The position numbers and the translations under genes are program-made. The notes beneath the pieces are model-generated. The model made no database searches. It was not told the origin of the DNA and saw only the letters and a list, made by a program, of their open reading frames with translations. From Nitrospiria bacterium (GTDB lineage: Bacteria > Nitrospirota > Nitrospiria > JACQBZ01): a stretch of DNA of 32,618 nucleotides. The stretch lies in NCBI GenBank assembly GCA_035498035.1, contig DATKAN010000019.1, positions 1 through 32,618 on the forward strand, written 5' to 3'. Of the stretch, positions 25,674-29,918 are shown one piece after another; the stretch's first letter is position 1, and the number at the start of each line of letters is the position of its first letter.

Positions 25674-27623
25674 CTAAACCTTTTTCCCCCGTGCTTCCCA
25701 TTTGCCGCGGAAGGTGATCCGGAAGGAGAGCGCGATCAGTCGGAGGTCGAGCCAGAATGAACGGGACCGTACGTAAAGCAGGTCGTAGCGAAGCTTTTGC
25801 CGACGCGTCGCGTCCCGCGGCGCGTAGATCTGGGCCAGCCCGGTTAGGCCGGGCAGAACGCGGTGGCGGAGATGAAAATTGGGAATAACGCTGTTTAGAC
25901 GATTTATCCCACTCTGTTCTTTGAATTCATCCATTTCTTTATGGACTAACCCACTTACTTCAAATATTTCATCCTTCTTAGCATCAACAATACCACTTTT
26001 TAAATTGCGGACGGCTCTTTCCCGCTCCATCCTTAGGCCTTTTACCTCGATCTCGACCCGCCTCAGCGCCCTCGGTCCCACGAAACTCATGTCGCCCCGG
26101 AAGATATTCCAGAGCTGGGGAAGCTCGTCCATCGCGGTGGCCCGAAGCCACCGGCCGACCCGCGTAACCCTGGGATCGTCATAGGCCGCCTGGACCGGCC
26201 CGCGCCCCGCCTCGGCATTCGGGACCATCGAGCGGAATTTCAAGGCCTGAAAAATCTTTCCATTTTTGCCGACCCGCTCCTGTCGGTAGAAAACCGGCCC
26301 GCCGTCCTCCAGCTTGACCAACGCGGCGAAGAGCGCCCAGAGCGGCGAGGAGCCGATCAGACCGATCCCGGAGAGACCGATGTCGAGTGCACGTTTCAAT
26401 CTTGAGGCCGGACGGGCTTTTTCGATGAGGCCTTGCAGCGTGAGCCCGAACCGCCGCGTCGCGTCCGAACGGTCGAACCGCGTCTCAAAAACCTTGCGGG
26501 CCCTTTCGCCGAAAAGCCGGCGCCTTTCCGGTTCCCCGTACAGTTCCATAACGGCCCGGCGGAACCCCCCGACATCTCCCGGCTCGATTACAAACCCGCA
26601 CTTTCCCTCCTCGACCACGCGGGCCGTCTCGCTCTCCGCGGGACCGATATAAAGGATAGGCCGCCCGGCCGCCAGCGCGCCGTACAGCTTGCTGGGAACG
26701 ATCAACCCTTCCAGGCCCGGCCGGAGCGTAATCAGATGGAGGTCGCCGCTGCTCAAACTGAAGGCCAGATCGTCCTCGGCCTGGAAGGGAAGAAATTTCA
26801 TATTCGACCCTCCGCGCGATCGCTCTTCCACCTCTTTTTGTTTCTTCCCGCCGCCGATGAAGAGGAACACGATGTCATCATGGGCTTTCAGCCGTTCGGC
26901 CGCGTTCAGTACGGTTTCGAAGGGATGGGCCAGTCCCATATTGCCCGAATAGAGAACGATGAATTTGTTCCGCAGGCCGTGCCCGTCCAGGAATGGATTG
27001 GTCTCGGGCAGGACGGGGCGGACCCGCTCCCCGTCGGCCCAGTTGTGAACGACCCGGATTTTTTCGGGATCGACCCCCCGGACTTGAAGAAGATCCGACA
27101 TGAACTCGCCGACGGCGATCACCCCGTCCGACGCCCGGAGCGCCCGGAGGGACAGAAACTTTAAAAACATGGCGACAGCGGATCGCTCGCGGAGGATCCC
27201 GAGACGGACCGCGACCTCCGGATAGACGTCCTGGCACCAGCAGACGTACGCGGAGCCCTTCAAAAGACGGAGAATCGGCCCGAGGGCGAAGAGGAGCGGG
27301 GGATCGCTCAGAAAAACGACGACGTCCTGTCTCGGAAGCCGGAGGGCCTCGATCAAGGCCCGCGGATAAAAGGAAATACTGTTGAGGACCCAACGCCACA
27401 CCGCACGGCGGTCGAGCCGCAAGGCCCGAACGCGGCGGACCCGGATGCCCCCGCGCATTTCCCTTTCGGGATACCGCGCGGCCGCGTCGTCGGAGGCGGC
27501 ATCGCCCGCGATCACGGTGACGCGATGGCCGGCGCGGGAGAGATCGGTCGCGAGATCCGTCAGCATCCGGCTCGTCCCGGAGGGATCGGGATAAAAGTAG
27601 CGATTGACGAAAAGGATCTTCAT
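25674..27623 (-). CDS. Fused GT4 glycosyltransferase and polyprenyl-phosphate sugar phosphotransferase
   Basis: A 649-residue two-domain enzyme for surface polysaccharide synthesis. Residues 1-395 are a GT-B, GT4-family (WbuB-like) glycosyltransferase: MKILFVNRYFYPDPSGTSRM, VVHNWADGERVRP, LYSGNMGLAHPFETVL and LIVPSKLYGALAAGRPILYIGP. Residues about 410-649 are a bacterial sugar transferase that starts the lipid-linked repeat unit: membrane re-entrant helix LKRALDIGLSGIGLIGSSPLW, then FYRQERVGKNGKIFQALKFRSM, DELPQLWNIFRGDMSFVGPRAL, and GLTGLAQIYAPRD. The two are normally separate proteins acting in succession. Residues about 531-581 form an extra Lys/Glu-rich insertion encoded by markedly AT-rich DNA (18 G/C in 60 at 25921-25980, against 39 in 60 at 26041-26100). 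The ribosome site is weak. Confidence 0.88.
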   Translation of the reverse strand: MKILFVNRYFYPDPSGTSRMLTDLATDLSRAGHRVTVIAGDAASDDAAARYPEREMRGGIRVRRVRALRLDRRAVWRWVLNSISFYPRALIEALRLPRQDVVVFLSDPPLLFALGPILRLLKGSAYVCWCQDVYPEVAVRLGILRERSAVAMFLKFLSLRALRASDGVIAVGEFMSDLLQVRGVDPEKIRVVHNWADGERVRPVLPETNPFLDGHGLRNKFIVLYSGNMGLAHPFETVLNAAERLKAHDDIVFLFIGGGKKQKEVEERSRGGSNMKFLPFQAEDDLAFSLSSGDLHLITLRPGLEGLIVPSKLYGALAAGRPILYIGPAESETARVVEEGKCGFVIEPGDVGGFRRAVMELYGEPERRRLFGERARKVFETRFDRSDATRRFGLTLQGLIEKARPASRLKRALDIGLSGIGLIGSSPLWALFAALVKLEDGGPVFYRQERVGKNGKIFQALKFRSMVPNAEAGRGPVQAAYDDPRVTRVGRWLRATAMDELPQLWNIFRGDMSFVGPRALRRVEIEVKGLRMERERAVRNLKSGIVDAKKDEIFEVSGLVHKEMDEFKEQSGINRLNSVIPNFHLRHRVLPGLTGLAQIYAPRDATRRQKLRYDLLYVRSRSFWLDLRLIALSFRITFRGKWEARGKKV

Positions 27624-27636
27624 GGGCTAAAACATG

Positions 27637-27706
27637 TCAGGAGTAAGGAGAACGTATACGCCCCGTTGCTTTCTCTCCTCACTCCTCACTATTTACTCCT
27701 TACGCC
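27637..27706. repeat. Facing heptamer repeats at the carbamoyltransferase 3' end
   Basis: On the plus strand 27675-27702 reads CTCCTCA, CTCCTCA, CTATTTA, CTCCTTA and is followed by CGCC. The opposite-orientation copy TCAGGAG, TAAGGAG occupies 27637-27650. The two can pair as an imperfect hairpin. The last heptamer includes the carbamoyltransferase stop codon (TAA at 27702-27700 on the minus strand). Confidence 0.75.
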
Positions 27707-29451
27707 TTTTCAATCCAGAAATTCCCCATCACCAGCCGGTCCATCTTCGTCCGGAGAAAACAGTCCACCGCCTCTTCCGGGCGGGCGACGATCGGCTCGT
27801 TTTCGTTGAACGAGGTGTTCAGCAGGACCGGGACGCCGGTGAGTTTTTCAAAGGCCTTGATCAGCTTCCAGTACCCCGGATGGGTCGCGCGGTCCACCGT
27901 CTGGAACCGTCCGGTGCCGTCCGCGTGGGTCACGGCCGGGATGACGGACCGTTTCTCTTTTTTGACCGGGTAGACCTTGAGCATGAAGGGGTCGGGGGTG
28001 CTCTTCTCGAAATAATCGCCGGCCGCCTCCGCAAGGATCGACGGCGCGAAGGGACGGAAGGCCTCGCGCCGCTTGATGCGCGCATTGAGGACGTCCTTCA
28101 TGTCGGCGCGACGGGGATCGGCCAGGATGCTGCGGTTTCCGAGCGCCCGCGGCCCCCATTCCATGCGGCCCTGAAACCAGCCGACGACCTTCCCGTCCGC
28201 GATCGCCCGCGCCGTCCTCCGGCAGAGCTCGTCTTCGTCGCCGATTTCGGTCACGATGCATCCCCGCTCTTTCATCTCCTCACTCCTCACTCCTAACTCC
28301 TTGCTCAAATCGGCTTCGCCGAATTGCGGGCCCCAGAAGGCATGGTCCATCACGAAGGAGCGGGGAAGGCCGGGGACGCGATGATGGACGTCGTAGGCGG
28401 ACCCGACCGCTGTGCCGGCATCGCCCGGCGCGGGCGGAATATAAATCTTCTCGAACGGCGTCCGGTCGGAGATCTTGCCGTTGGCGACGCTGTTCATCGC
28501 GCAGCCGCCGGAAAGACAGAGCGATCGGAGTTTGGTGCGTTCATAGAGTTTGTTGAGAATGGAAAAGTAGGTCTCTTCGAATACGACCTGCAATGAGGAC
28601 GCGATGTTCTGATGGCGTGATGTAACTTCCTCGTCCGGCTTCCGGGCCGGGCCGAGCAGGCATTCCCACCGGTCCGAATAGATCGGCCCGACCGCGGGCT
28701 CGCCGCGCTCCCAGGTCATGGGGACGCCCCCGGTGTGATGGCGGAAGAAGCGCAGATCGAGCTCGAAGGTCCCGTCTTTTTTTAAACGGATGATCCTCCG
28801 GAAGGCGTCCGGGTACTCCGGCTCCCCGTACGCCGCCAGGCCCATCACCTTGTACTCGTCGCCGTATTTCGGAAATCCCAAATATTGCGTCGCGGCGGTG
28901 TAGAGAAATCCGAGCGAATGCGGGAACAATATGTTGCCTTTTACATCAATCCTGTTGCCTTCCCCGATCCCCCACATCGTGCTGGTATAATCCCCCAGTG
29001 CATCCACCGAGACGACCGCGGCCCGGTCGAACGGCGAGACGAAAAATCCCGAGGCCATATGCGCCCGGTGATGTTCGATATGATGTACCCGGGCCTTTAT
29101 CTCCTCACCCCTCGCTCCCAACTCATTACTCATTACGCCCTTTATATTCCCGACGCGCGAGCGGTTGCGCATCCGGTCGGCCAGATACGACCATTTCGGC
29201 CGATGGCCCAGGGCGAAAAGGACCTTTCTCCAGAAATGGGCCTTCGGGTCGCGCGAGACCGCGACATGATCCACGTCATGGATCGAGACGCCGGCCTCGG
29301 AAAGACAGTACCGGATCGCCTCGGCCGGAAACCCGGCCCAGTGCTTGATCCGCCGGAACCGCTCCTCCTCCGCCGCCGCGATCAGCTTTCCGTCCACGAC
29401 AATCGCCGCAGCCGCATCGGCGTGGTATGCGTTTATACCGAGTATGATCAA
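27700..29451 (-). CDS. NodU/TobZ-family carbamoyltransferase
   Basis: A 583-residue O-carbamoyltransferase using carbamoyl phosphate and ATP, here probably decorating a sugar of the surface polysaccharide. The N-terminal Kae1-like domain has ILGINAYHADAAAAIV, EEERFRRIKHW, and the metal-binding HHIEHHRAH near residue 122; SVDALGDYTSTMWG, LYTAATQYLGF and LCLSGGCAMNSVANGK follow. The C-terminal YrdC-like domain carries WFQGRMEWGPRALGNRSILADPR and VLLNTSFNENEPIV. The start is TTG at 29451, with AGGGA 7 nt upstream. Two short peptides of the same pattern, near residues 104-119 and 381-393, come from an in-frame heptamer DNA repeat, and a third copy supplies the stop codon. Both inserts fall in variable loops outside the catalytic motifs, so the enzyme may still work. 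Confidence 0.93.
   Translation of the reverse strand: MIILGINAYHADAAAAIVVDGKLIAAAEEERFRRIKHWAGFPAEAIRYCLSEAGVSIHDVDHVAVSRDPKAHFWRKVLFALGHRPKWSYLADRMRNRSRVGNIKGVMSNELGARGEEIKARVHHIEHHRAHMASGFFVSPFDRAAVVSVDALGDYTSTMWGIGEGNRIDVKGNILFPHSLGFLYTAATQYLGFPKYGDEYKVMGLAAYGEPEYPDAFRRIIRLKKDGTFELDLRFFRHHTGGVPMTWERGEPAVGPIYSDRWECLLGPARKPDEEVTSRHQNIASSLQVVFEETYFSILNKLYERTKLRSLCLSGGCAMNSVANGKISDRTPFEKIYIPPAPGDAGTAVGSAYDVHHRVPGLPRSFVMDHAFWGPQFGEADLSKELGVRSEEMKERGCIVTEIGDEDELCRRTARAIADGKVVGWFQGRMEWGPRALGNRSILADPRRADMKDVLNARIKRREAFRPFAPSILAEAAGDYFEKSTPDPFMLKVYPVKKEKRSVIPAVTHADGTGRFQTVDRATHPGYWKLIKAFEKLTGVPVLLNTSFNENEPIVARPEEAVDCFLRTKMDRLVMGNFWIEKA
28276..28306. repeat. Heptamer repeat array inside the carbamoyltransferase (copy A)
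   Basis: Plus strand: CTCCTCA, CTCCTCA, CTCCTAA, CTCCTTG, CTC. In the gene frame it encodes SKELGVRSEE, near residues 382-392. Confidence 0.85.
29101..29138. repeat. Heptamer repeat array inside the carbamoyltransferase (copy B)
   Basis: Plus strand: CTCCTCA, CCCCTCG, CTCCCAA, CTCATTA, CTCATTA, then CGCCC. In the gene frame it encodes VMSNELGARGEE, near residues 105-116. It is in the same frame and orientation as copy A, and more diverged. Confidence 0.8.
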
Positions 29452-29539: not shown

Positions 29540-29620
29540 CTACCTTCTGGTCCTTTTCTTGGCCTTTTTTTTCTTGGCCGTGGCCTTCTTCTTCTTTGCG
29601 GCCGCTTTCTTCTTAGGCAA
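29540..29620 (-). CDS. Tiny lysine/alanine-rich basic protein (26 residues)
   Basis: A short frame beginning with TTG at 29620 and ending TAG at 29540. The peptide starts MPKKKAAAKKKK, continues with Ala-Thr-Ala and more Lys runs, and ends KKRTRR; every residue after Pro2 is Lys, Ala, Arg or Thr. GGGGGTGG lies a few bases upstream as a ribosome site. The composition is like the C-terminal tail of histone H1-like bacterial DNA-binding proteins, so nucleic-acid or polyanion binding is a reasonable guess. It lies 88 bp upstream of the carbamoyltransferase start, in the same direction. Low complexity could also arise by repeat expansion without coding; the ribosome site and clean stop favour a gene. 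Confidence 0.5.
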   Translation of the reverse strand: MPKKKAAAKKKKATAKKKKAKKRTRR

Positions 29621-29918
29621 ATGACCACCCCCTTTCAAGCCCCGAAGTTTGTTTCGAGGTCAATCCTCCCTGTGAACTCCTACCCATTCCCAGACCCGAT
29701 TCCCTCCCACCGAACCCACCAGCCGTACTTGTTTTGGCCCCCTCGCAGACGACACTATATATAATGATGCAACCCCCATTATATTGCTTCCCAGCCAAAA
29801 GGAACGATACAACGAATCCGTGAGCCTAAAATCAACCCTGGTCGTTCTTTCCTCAAAATCCGACGGGCCTCAAATAGAATGACCAAAAACAGCCTGTCCC
29901 GCTACGAACAAGGGATGA
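29621..29918. other. Intergenic stretch without a supported gene
   Basis: About 300 bp between the Alg13-like gene and the lysine-rich gene. It contains AT-rich runs, TATATA and TATAAT-like boxes near 29755-29780 on the minus strand that could be -10 elements for the small gene, but no matching -35 box. The short minus-strand frame ending at 29613 has no ribosome site or recognisable family. No intrinsic terminator is clear. Confidence 0.4.

Follow-up and report, generated by a model that had tools for sequence, protein, structure and literature searches.

Length-neutral occupation of two variable segments of a carbamoyltransferase by a dispersed heptanucleotide repeat in Nitrospiria

In many bacteria heptanucleotide units are reported to be over-represented among long simple repeats; there is little explanation for them, and most accounts treat them as intergenic. 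Direct repeats of the heptamer TAACTGA occur in Beggiatoaceae, cyanobacteria and Bacteroidetes, mostly between genes, according to the accessible part of the report on them (MacGregor 2015, PMC4679880). Like the GGAGTNA repeat described here, they place stops in all frames of one strand and overlap the stop codons of upstream genes, and the few copies within ORFs lie mostly at protein ends. The unit is a different one, however, and the accessible part of that report does not describe homologous internal segments that are occupied repeatedly without change of length. Xanthomonas and Nostoc carry GGGAATC and GGGGA(C/T)T heptamers, which form inverted pairs in Xanthomonas (PMC4692102). These are also dispersed with period 7, lying directly after stop codons when on the coding strand and directly before start codons when on the opposite one, and their places are conserved while the arrays change fast (PMC4692102). 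They are distinguished by GGG runs and G-quadruplexes, whereas GGAGTNA units hold only GG. The STRR heptanucleotide repeats of cyanobacteria and the long simple-sequence repeats (LSSR) with 7-nt units (Calothrix; Mrazek 2007), both cited in PMC4692102 and PMC4679880, share with GGAGTNA an over-represented 7-nt class and species-specific units, and the two citing papers describe them mainly as intergenic. Heptamer arrays that overlap stop codons and occasionally lie inside ORFs are thus already known (PMC4679880, PMC4692102). A literature search of partial coverage found no report of recurrent in-frame, length-neutral heptamer occupation of homologous internal segments. The moderate interest of the present case lies in this recurrence and not in a new system. 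Recurrent occupation of the same two enzyme segments, by differing units and mostly at unchanged length, provides a countable test of repeat spread, by insertion or by overwriting, and of how repeat DNA turns into protein.

Heptamer arrays in a carbamoyltransferase gene

The window is the whole stretch of DNA that was analysed, 32,618 nucleotides from a Nitrospiria bacterium. It contains an O-carbamoyltransferase CDS of the NodU/TobZ/GdmN/VtdB type (27700..29451, minus strand; 583 aa), an ORF called mechanically with a TTG start and the stop TAA at 27702-27700. PF02543 and PF16861 (Carbam_trans_N and Carbam_trans_C) are both complete and span the whole length of the protein. The nearest solved structures are VtdB, NovN and GdmN (VtdB 7xb6, E=5e-93), and the fold comparison gave Foldseek TM values of 0.8-0.87. 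The domain content places the protein in the NodU/TobZ family, and O-carbamoylation is predicted. It shares domain architecture and fold with VtdB, GdmN, NovN and TobZ but differs from them in two variable segments. The gene adjoins glycosyltransferase genes, the next in the cluster being a glycosyltransferase fused to a bacterial sugar transferase (25674..27623, minus strand). A short Lys/Ala-rich reading frame (PKKKAAAKKKKATAKKKKAKK-like; 29540-29625, minus strand) lies immediately upstream of the carbamoyltransferase, and a second, 45% identical paralogue is present in the same genome (G000:C65:12975-14732).

The initial annotation had reported CTCCTCA-like heptamer arrays at 29101..29138, 28276..28306 and 27675..27706 and a facing partial copy at 27637..27650. 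All were detected again, by sequence reading, TRF and pattern search, and all are on the minus strand. The array at 29101..29138 (site 1) is degenerate and in frame, and encodes approximately residues 106-117 (VMSNELGARGEE); its sense strand reads AAT GAG TTG GGA GCG AGG GGT GAG GAG. In the AlphaFold2 model it falls on a helix end and bend ahead of the conserved HHIEHH motif. The array at 28276..28306 (site 2; GAGCAAGGAGTTAGGAGTGAGGAGTGAGGAG), also in frame, encodes approximately residues 383-392 (SKELGVRSEE) at the beginning of the C-terminal, YrdC-like part, and its sense strand reads AAG GAG TTA GGA GTG AGG AGT GAG GAG. Across the window, pattern matches with at most 3 mismatches number 7 against 2.5 expected, which is mildly over chance.

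The GGAGTNA units of both coding arrays lie on the sense strand of the gene in one common frame, and the related peptides that had been predicted from them, NELGARGEE (residues 109-117) and KELGVRSEE (residues 384-392), are indeed part of the 583-aa ORF. The common frame is less telling than it seems. From 3 units onwards a GGAGTNA array is closed by stops in all frames, except where the TNA that falls in frame reads TTA or the like, so the shared frame is partly forced because the other frames run into TGA or TAA. ELG occurs in both arrays for the same reason, since the in-frame TNA, here TTA or TTG, cannot be TGA or TAA. Significance was assessed by shuffling synonymous codons with the protein sequence unchanged. 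For period 7, site 2 scored 18/21 (p=0.0005), and its score for the GGAGTNA template was 23/24 (p=0.003). The corresponding scores of site 1 were 14/21 (p=0.036) and 20/24 (p=0.003), and site 1 is therefore a weaker, degenerate array, marginal if taken alone.

Length, recurrence and origin of the occupied segments

Homologues were collected by one scan of genome contigs (80 loci) and one phylum search, and most of their genomes are drafts. The two arrays had been interpreted as independent or old insertions, and an alignment with homologues was proposed to see whether both segments are absent there. The outcome was the opposite. Site 1 (N96-H128) has 33 residues and site 2 (G374-R411) has 38 residues in the window protein, in both cases the mode of 84 array-free homologues, and relative to homologues the window protein has no added residues that would support insertion. 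Array-free homologues, for example L106 (ADELGIDKSDIKAK) and L078 (GLLGVKNEEIQGRGC), carry in-register peptides similar to those of the arrays. In two sister pairs, L086/L079 of Mariprofundus and L136/L135, the member that has an array and the one that lacks it are equally long at the site. The idea that repeat-derived peptides are tolerated in variable segments thus holds, whereas the idea that they were added does not, and array peptides of this type should not be annotated as lineage-specific insertions. Occupancy is not length-neutral everywhere. L046, from the same genus, has 8 and 15 additional residues at the two sites with degenerate or different heptamers, and L058 has 3 additional residues. 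Insertion therefore occurs at these sites, but it does not account for the window gene.

Among non-overlapping 11-residue windows of the protein these two sites have the highest entropy, and an ideal array peptide, EELGVRSEE, placed on the array-free profile ranked first at residue 384 and second at residue 109 among 575 positions; the alignment behind both tests includes the query rows. Each segment runs from the end of a helix through a bend into a short helix (residues 103-117 and 379-395; AlphaFold2, mean pLDDT 92). Different heptamers occupy the same two stretches in unrelated bacteria, apparently because these stretches vary most and the repeat peptide fits there.

Recurrence was examined by comparing period-7 self-similarity with synonymous-codon shuffles along 108 genes (p<=0.005). 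In 7 genes a period-7 window was significant, and for six of these genes it fell on one of the two sites; the control periods 4, 5, 8, 10, 11 and 13 gave 0, 0, 0, 1, 0 and 0 genes. Local shuffle tests added L056 at both sites. Heptamer arrays thus occur at site 1 or 2 in 7 of the 108 homologous genes, with ten occupancies, differing heptamers and four phyla represented, figures that cover carbamoyltransferases only, starting from a gene picked because it has arrays. Both sites are occupied in the window gene, L046 and L056 (Methylomirabilota), site 1 in L058 (Nitrospiraceae) and L136 (Nitrospirota), and site 2 in L063 (Omnitrophota) and L086 (Mariprofundus). When the tree is built with both segments left out, the array label requires at least 6 changes, and its clustering is not significant (56 of 500 shuffles were equally low), so the occupancies appear as independent events. 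The genomes that host L063, L056 and L058 have RGRRTNA arrays elsewhere (reversed control, 0). A weak gene-wide signal in L104 at nt 1538 lies off both sites and was not counted as an array. The high period-7 scores that several genes show around nt 470, at a WGVGRG motif rich in GC, are mostly an amino-acid effect (shuffle p 0.1-0.45 in most of them) and were set aside; in L088 this motif gave 0/60 shuffles in a first run, yet it failed p<=0.005 with 200 shuffles.

Palindromic elements of Rickettsia are in-frame insertions in genes, and they illustrate that repetitive, partly palindromic DNA can be tolerated in coding sequence. That the present arrays likewise added peptides to surface loops is very unlikely. 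Arrays are dispersed in the genome, and the extra residues of L046 coincide with period-7 DNA at both sites, as insertion would predict. This is already contradicted for the window gene, because neither its protein nor those of L056, L136 and L086 have extra residues at the sites and because array-free homologues hold similar peptides in register. Rickettsia palindromic elements are also longer and add residues, whereas the window arrays span 30-40 bp with no net change of length; residues added relative to orthologues are absent from the window gene and partly seen in L046. The coding arrays are moreover single G arms, and a facing arm that could complete a hairpin is present only at the 3' junction copy. 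Inheritance or transfer between phyla of one ancestral array per site, rewritten locally by concerted evolution, is unlikely. GGAGTNA arrays at both sites are common to the window gene and L056 of another phylum, and orthologous intergenic junctions can retain an array while its unit changes, but the number of changes on the tree, the non-significant clustering and the array-free sisters L079 and L135 argue against common descent.

The similar peptides of array-free homologues and the marginal period-7 value of site 1 (p=0.036) might also suggest that helix-bend-helix peptides of the ELGVRSEE type simply use codons resembling heptamers. Such a coincidence is highly improbable, because it is rejected by peptide-preserving shuffles for site 2 as well as for six further genes, the signal is confined to period 7, the heptamers differ, and related arrays occur elsewhere in the three genomes tested. 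An even lower probability is given to retention of the coding arrays for a DNA or RNA function of their own, such as variation of the enzyme by slippage or a binding site for a regulator of the surface-polysaccharide cluster. Recurrence within one enzyme family and stable junction hairpins (z -4 to -8) are compatible with it. However, adding or losing a single 7-bp unit would put the gene out of frame, the arrays are short and degenerate, and the two sites simply coincide with the greatest variability of the protein.

We consider it probable (about 0.68) that the arrays represent a dispersed heptanucleotide repeat of an already known kind whose coding copies are kept only where the peptide resembles the native one, occupation being length-neutral. 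The main niche of the GGAGTNA repeat is intergenic gaps, in which opposed arrays of the G and C strands make up a hairpin; the G strand carries stops in all frames and a Shine-Dalgarno-like GGAG, with putative roles. Coding copies would persist only where the open-frame peptide resembles the existing protein, that is, in the variable segments here and in probable signal peptides elsewhere. The two helix-bend-helix segments are occupied in place with no net change of length, and in other lineages different heptamers have independently come to lie in the same segments, in several cases heptamers of a kind that the host genome also has elsewhere. Native sequence was probably overwritten at short matches to the array, such as GAGTTAGG, through template switching at the locus, slippage or gene conversion, after which purifying selection would retain in-frame, well-fitting outcomes only. 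No donor-acceptor conversion tract or intermediate state was seen in the sequences compared. This explanation does not assign the array peptides a function in the enzyme. It is doubtful, though conceivable, that genomes repeatedly rewrite variable segments with their own heptamers in a templated, length-conserving way, so that unrelated heptamers recode identical loops of one enzyme over and over in different phyla. The repeat would then act as a portable peptide patch, yielding a hydrophilic bend from the G strand and a signal-peptide core from the C strand.

Arrays at gene junctions and elsewhere in the genome

The third array is a G arm, read from 27706 to 27675, and the facing partial copy is the C arm that pairs with it. 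Together they can form an 83-nt hairpin (-28 kcal/mol; z = -4.6 versus shuffles) that occupies the junction ahead of the ATG of the glycosyltransferase-fusion gene. The initial annotation had noted that a repeat copy provides the stop codon of the carbamoyltransferase; the TAA indeed lies in the first unit, but this is not peculiar to the enzyme. Arrays supply or abut the stop also in genes for a LuxC-type reductase, a PilO homologue, a GatB homologue, the NADH dehydrogenase 49-kDa subunit and others. They do so because the G strand places TNA, mostly TGA or TAA, in all three frames. Arrays between genes often form facing pairs foldable into hairpins, and all 7 facing pairs that a stricter scan detected in this genome and its relatives had the G arm first. 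In G001 and G002, two genomes of the same genus, the orthologous junctions carry different heptamer arrays, palindromes of unrelated sequence or no array at all, and thus the contents of junctions turn over fast and their length is free to change. At the G002 junction that matches the third array, the array is absent. A different array (CCTCCAACCTCCAACC) at positions 1468-1504 of L046, which belongs to G002, reaches into the start codon of the carbamoyltransferase, unlike in the window gene, which has no array at its start.

A search for further arrays, suggested with the initial annotation, revealed a dispersed GGAGTNA-type family at about 20 places in the genome (2.67 Mb, 67 contigs). A 25-base GGAGTNA pattern gave 23 matches genome-wide (G000) versus 2 for the reversed control. 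RGRRTNA arrays were found in 58 of 198 genomes of the phylum, the reversed control also matching in some of those. In 514 kb of DNA flanking the homologues, 22 arrays had period 7 versus 0-2 for periods 5, 8, 10 and 11, and this excess indicates that the class of heptamer arrays is broad. With their 7-bp units, dispersal and intergenic or gene-end positions, the arrays are dispersed heptanucleotide tandem repeats of the STRR/LSSR type. An Rfam search with arrays and hairpins gave no match. According to mechanical ORF calls most array places are gene junctions, and the clear coding ones are the two described here and two in probable signal peptides. The arrays at C23:43703, C42:5034 and C42:6271 (L031, L035) have a common upstream sequence (GCCCGCGCCGGAGGAATK...GGATTATA), and GTAGGGGCTGACC-type sequence lies downstream of two of them; these shared flanks suggest composite repeats.

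The two coding arrays in probable signal peptides are C-strand arrays in frame, which encode LLLTPYSLLLTPASLGAQ and VTSHAVLLTPMSANA as hydrophobic N-termini. The LLLTPYSLLLTPASLGAQ array (L037:2646-2677 = G000:C58:23145-23175) belongs to a small secretion-cluster protein, whose start codon lies within the loop of a facing pair. It is present also in another genus (G005), weak in G002 and absent in the genus-mate G001, where the site is nevertheless of equal length. The other array (L042:2660-2690 = G000:C43:68159-68189) belongs to a periplasmic binding protein (PF01497), whose gene is preceded by a cobalamin riboswitch (L042:2993-3157). Between this riboswitch and the gene lies a dispersed repeat of ~96 bp (L042:about 2787-2882), several copies of which, with 78-90% identity, occur in G001 and G002.
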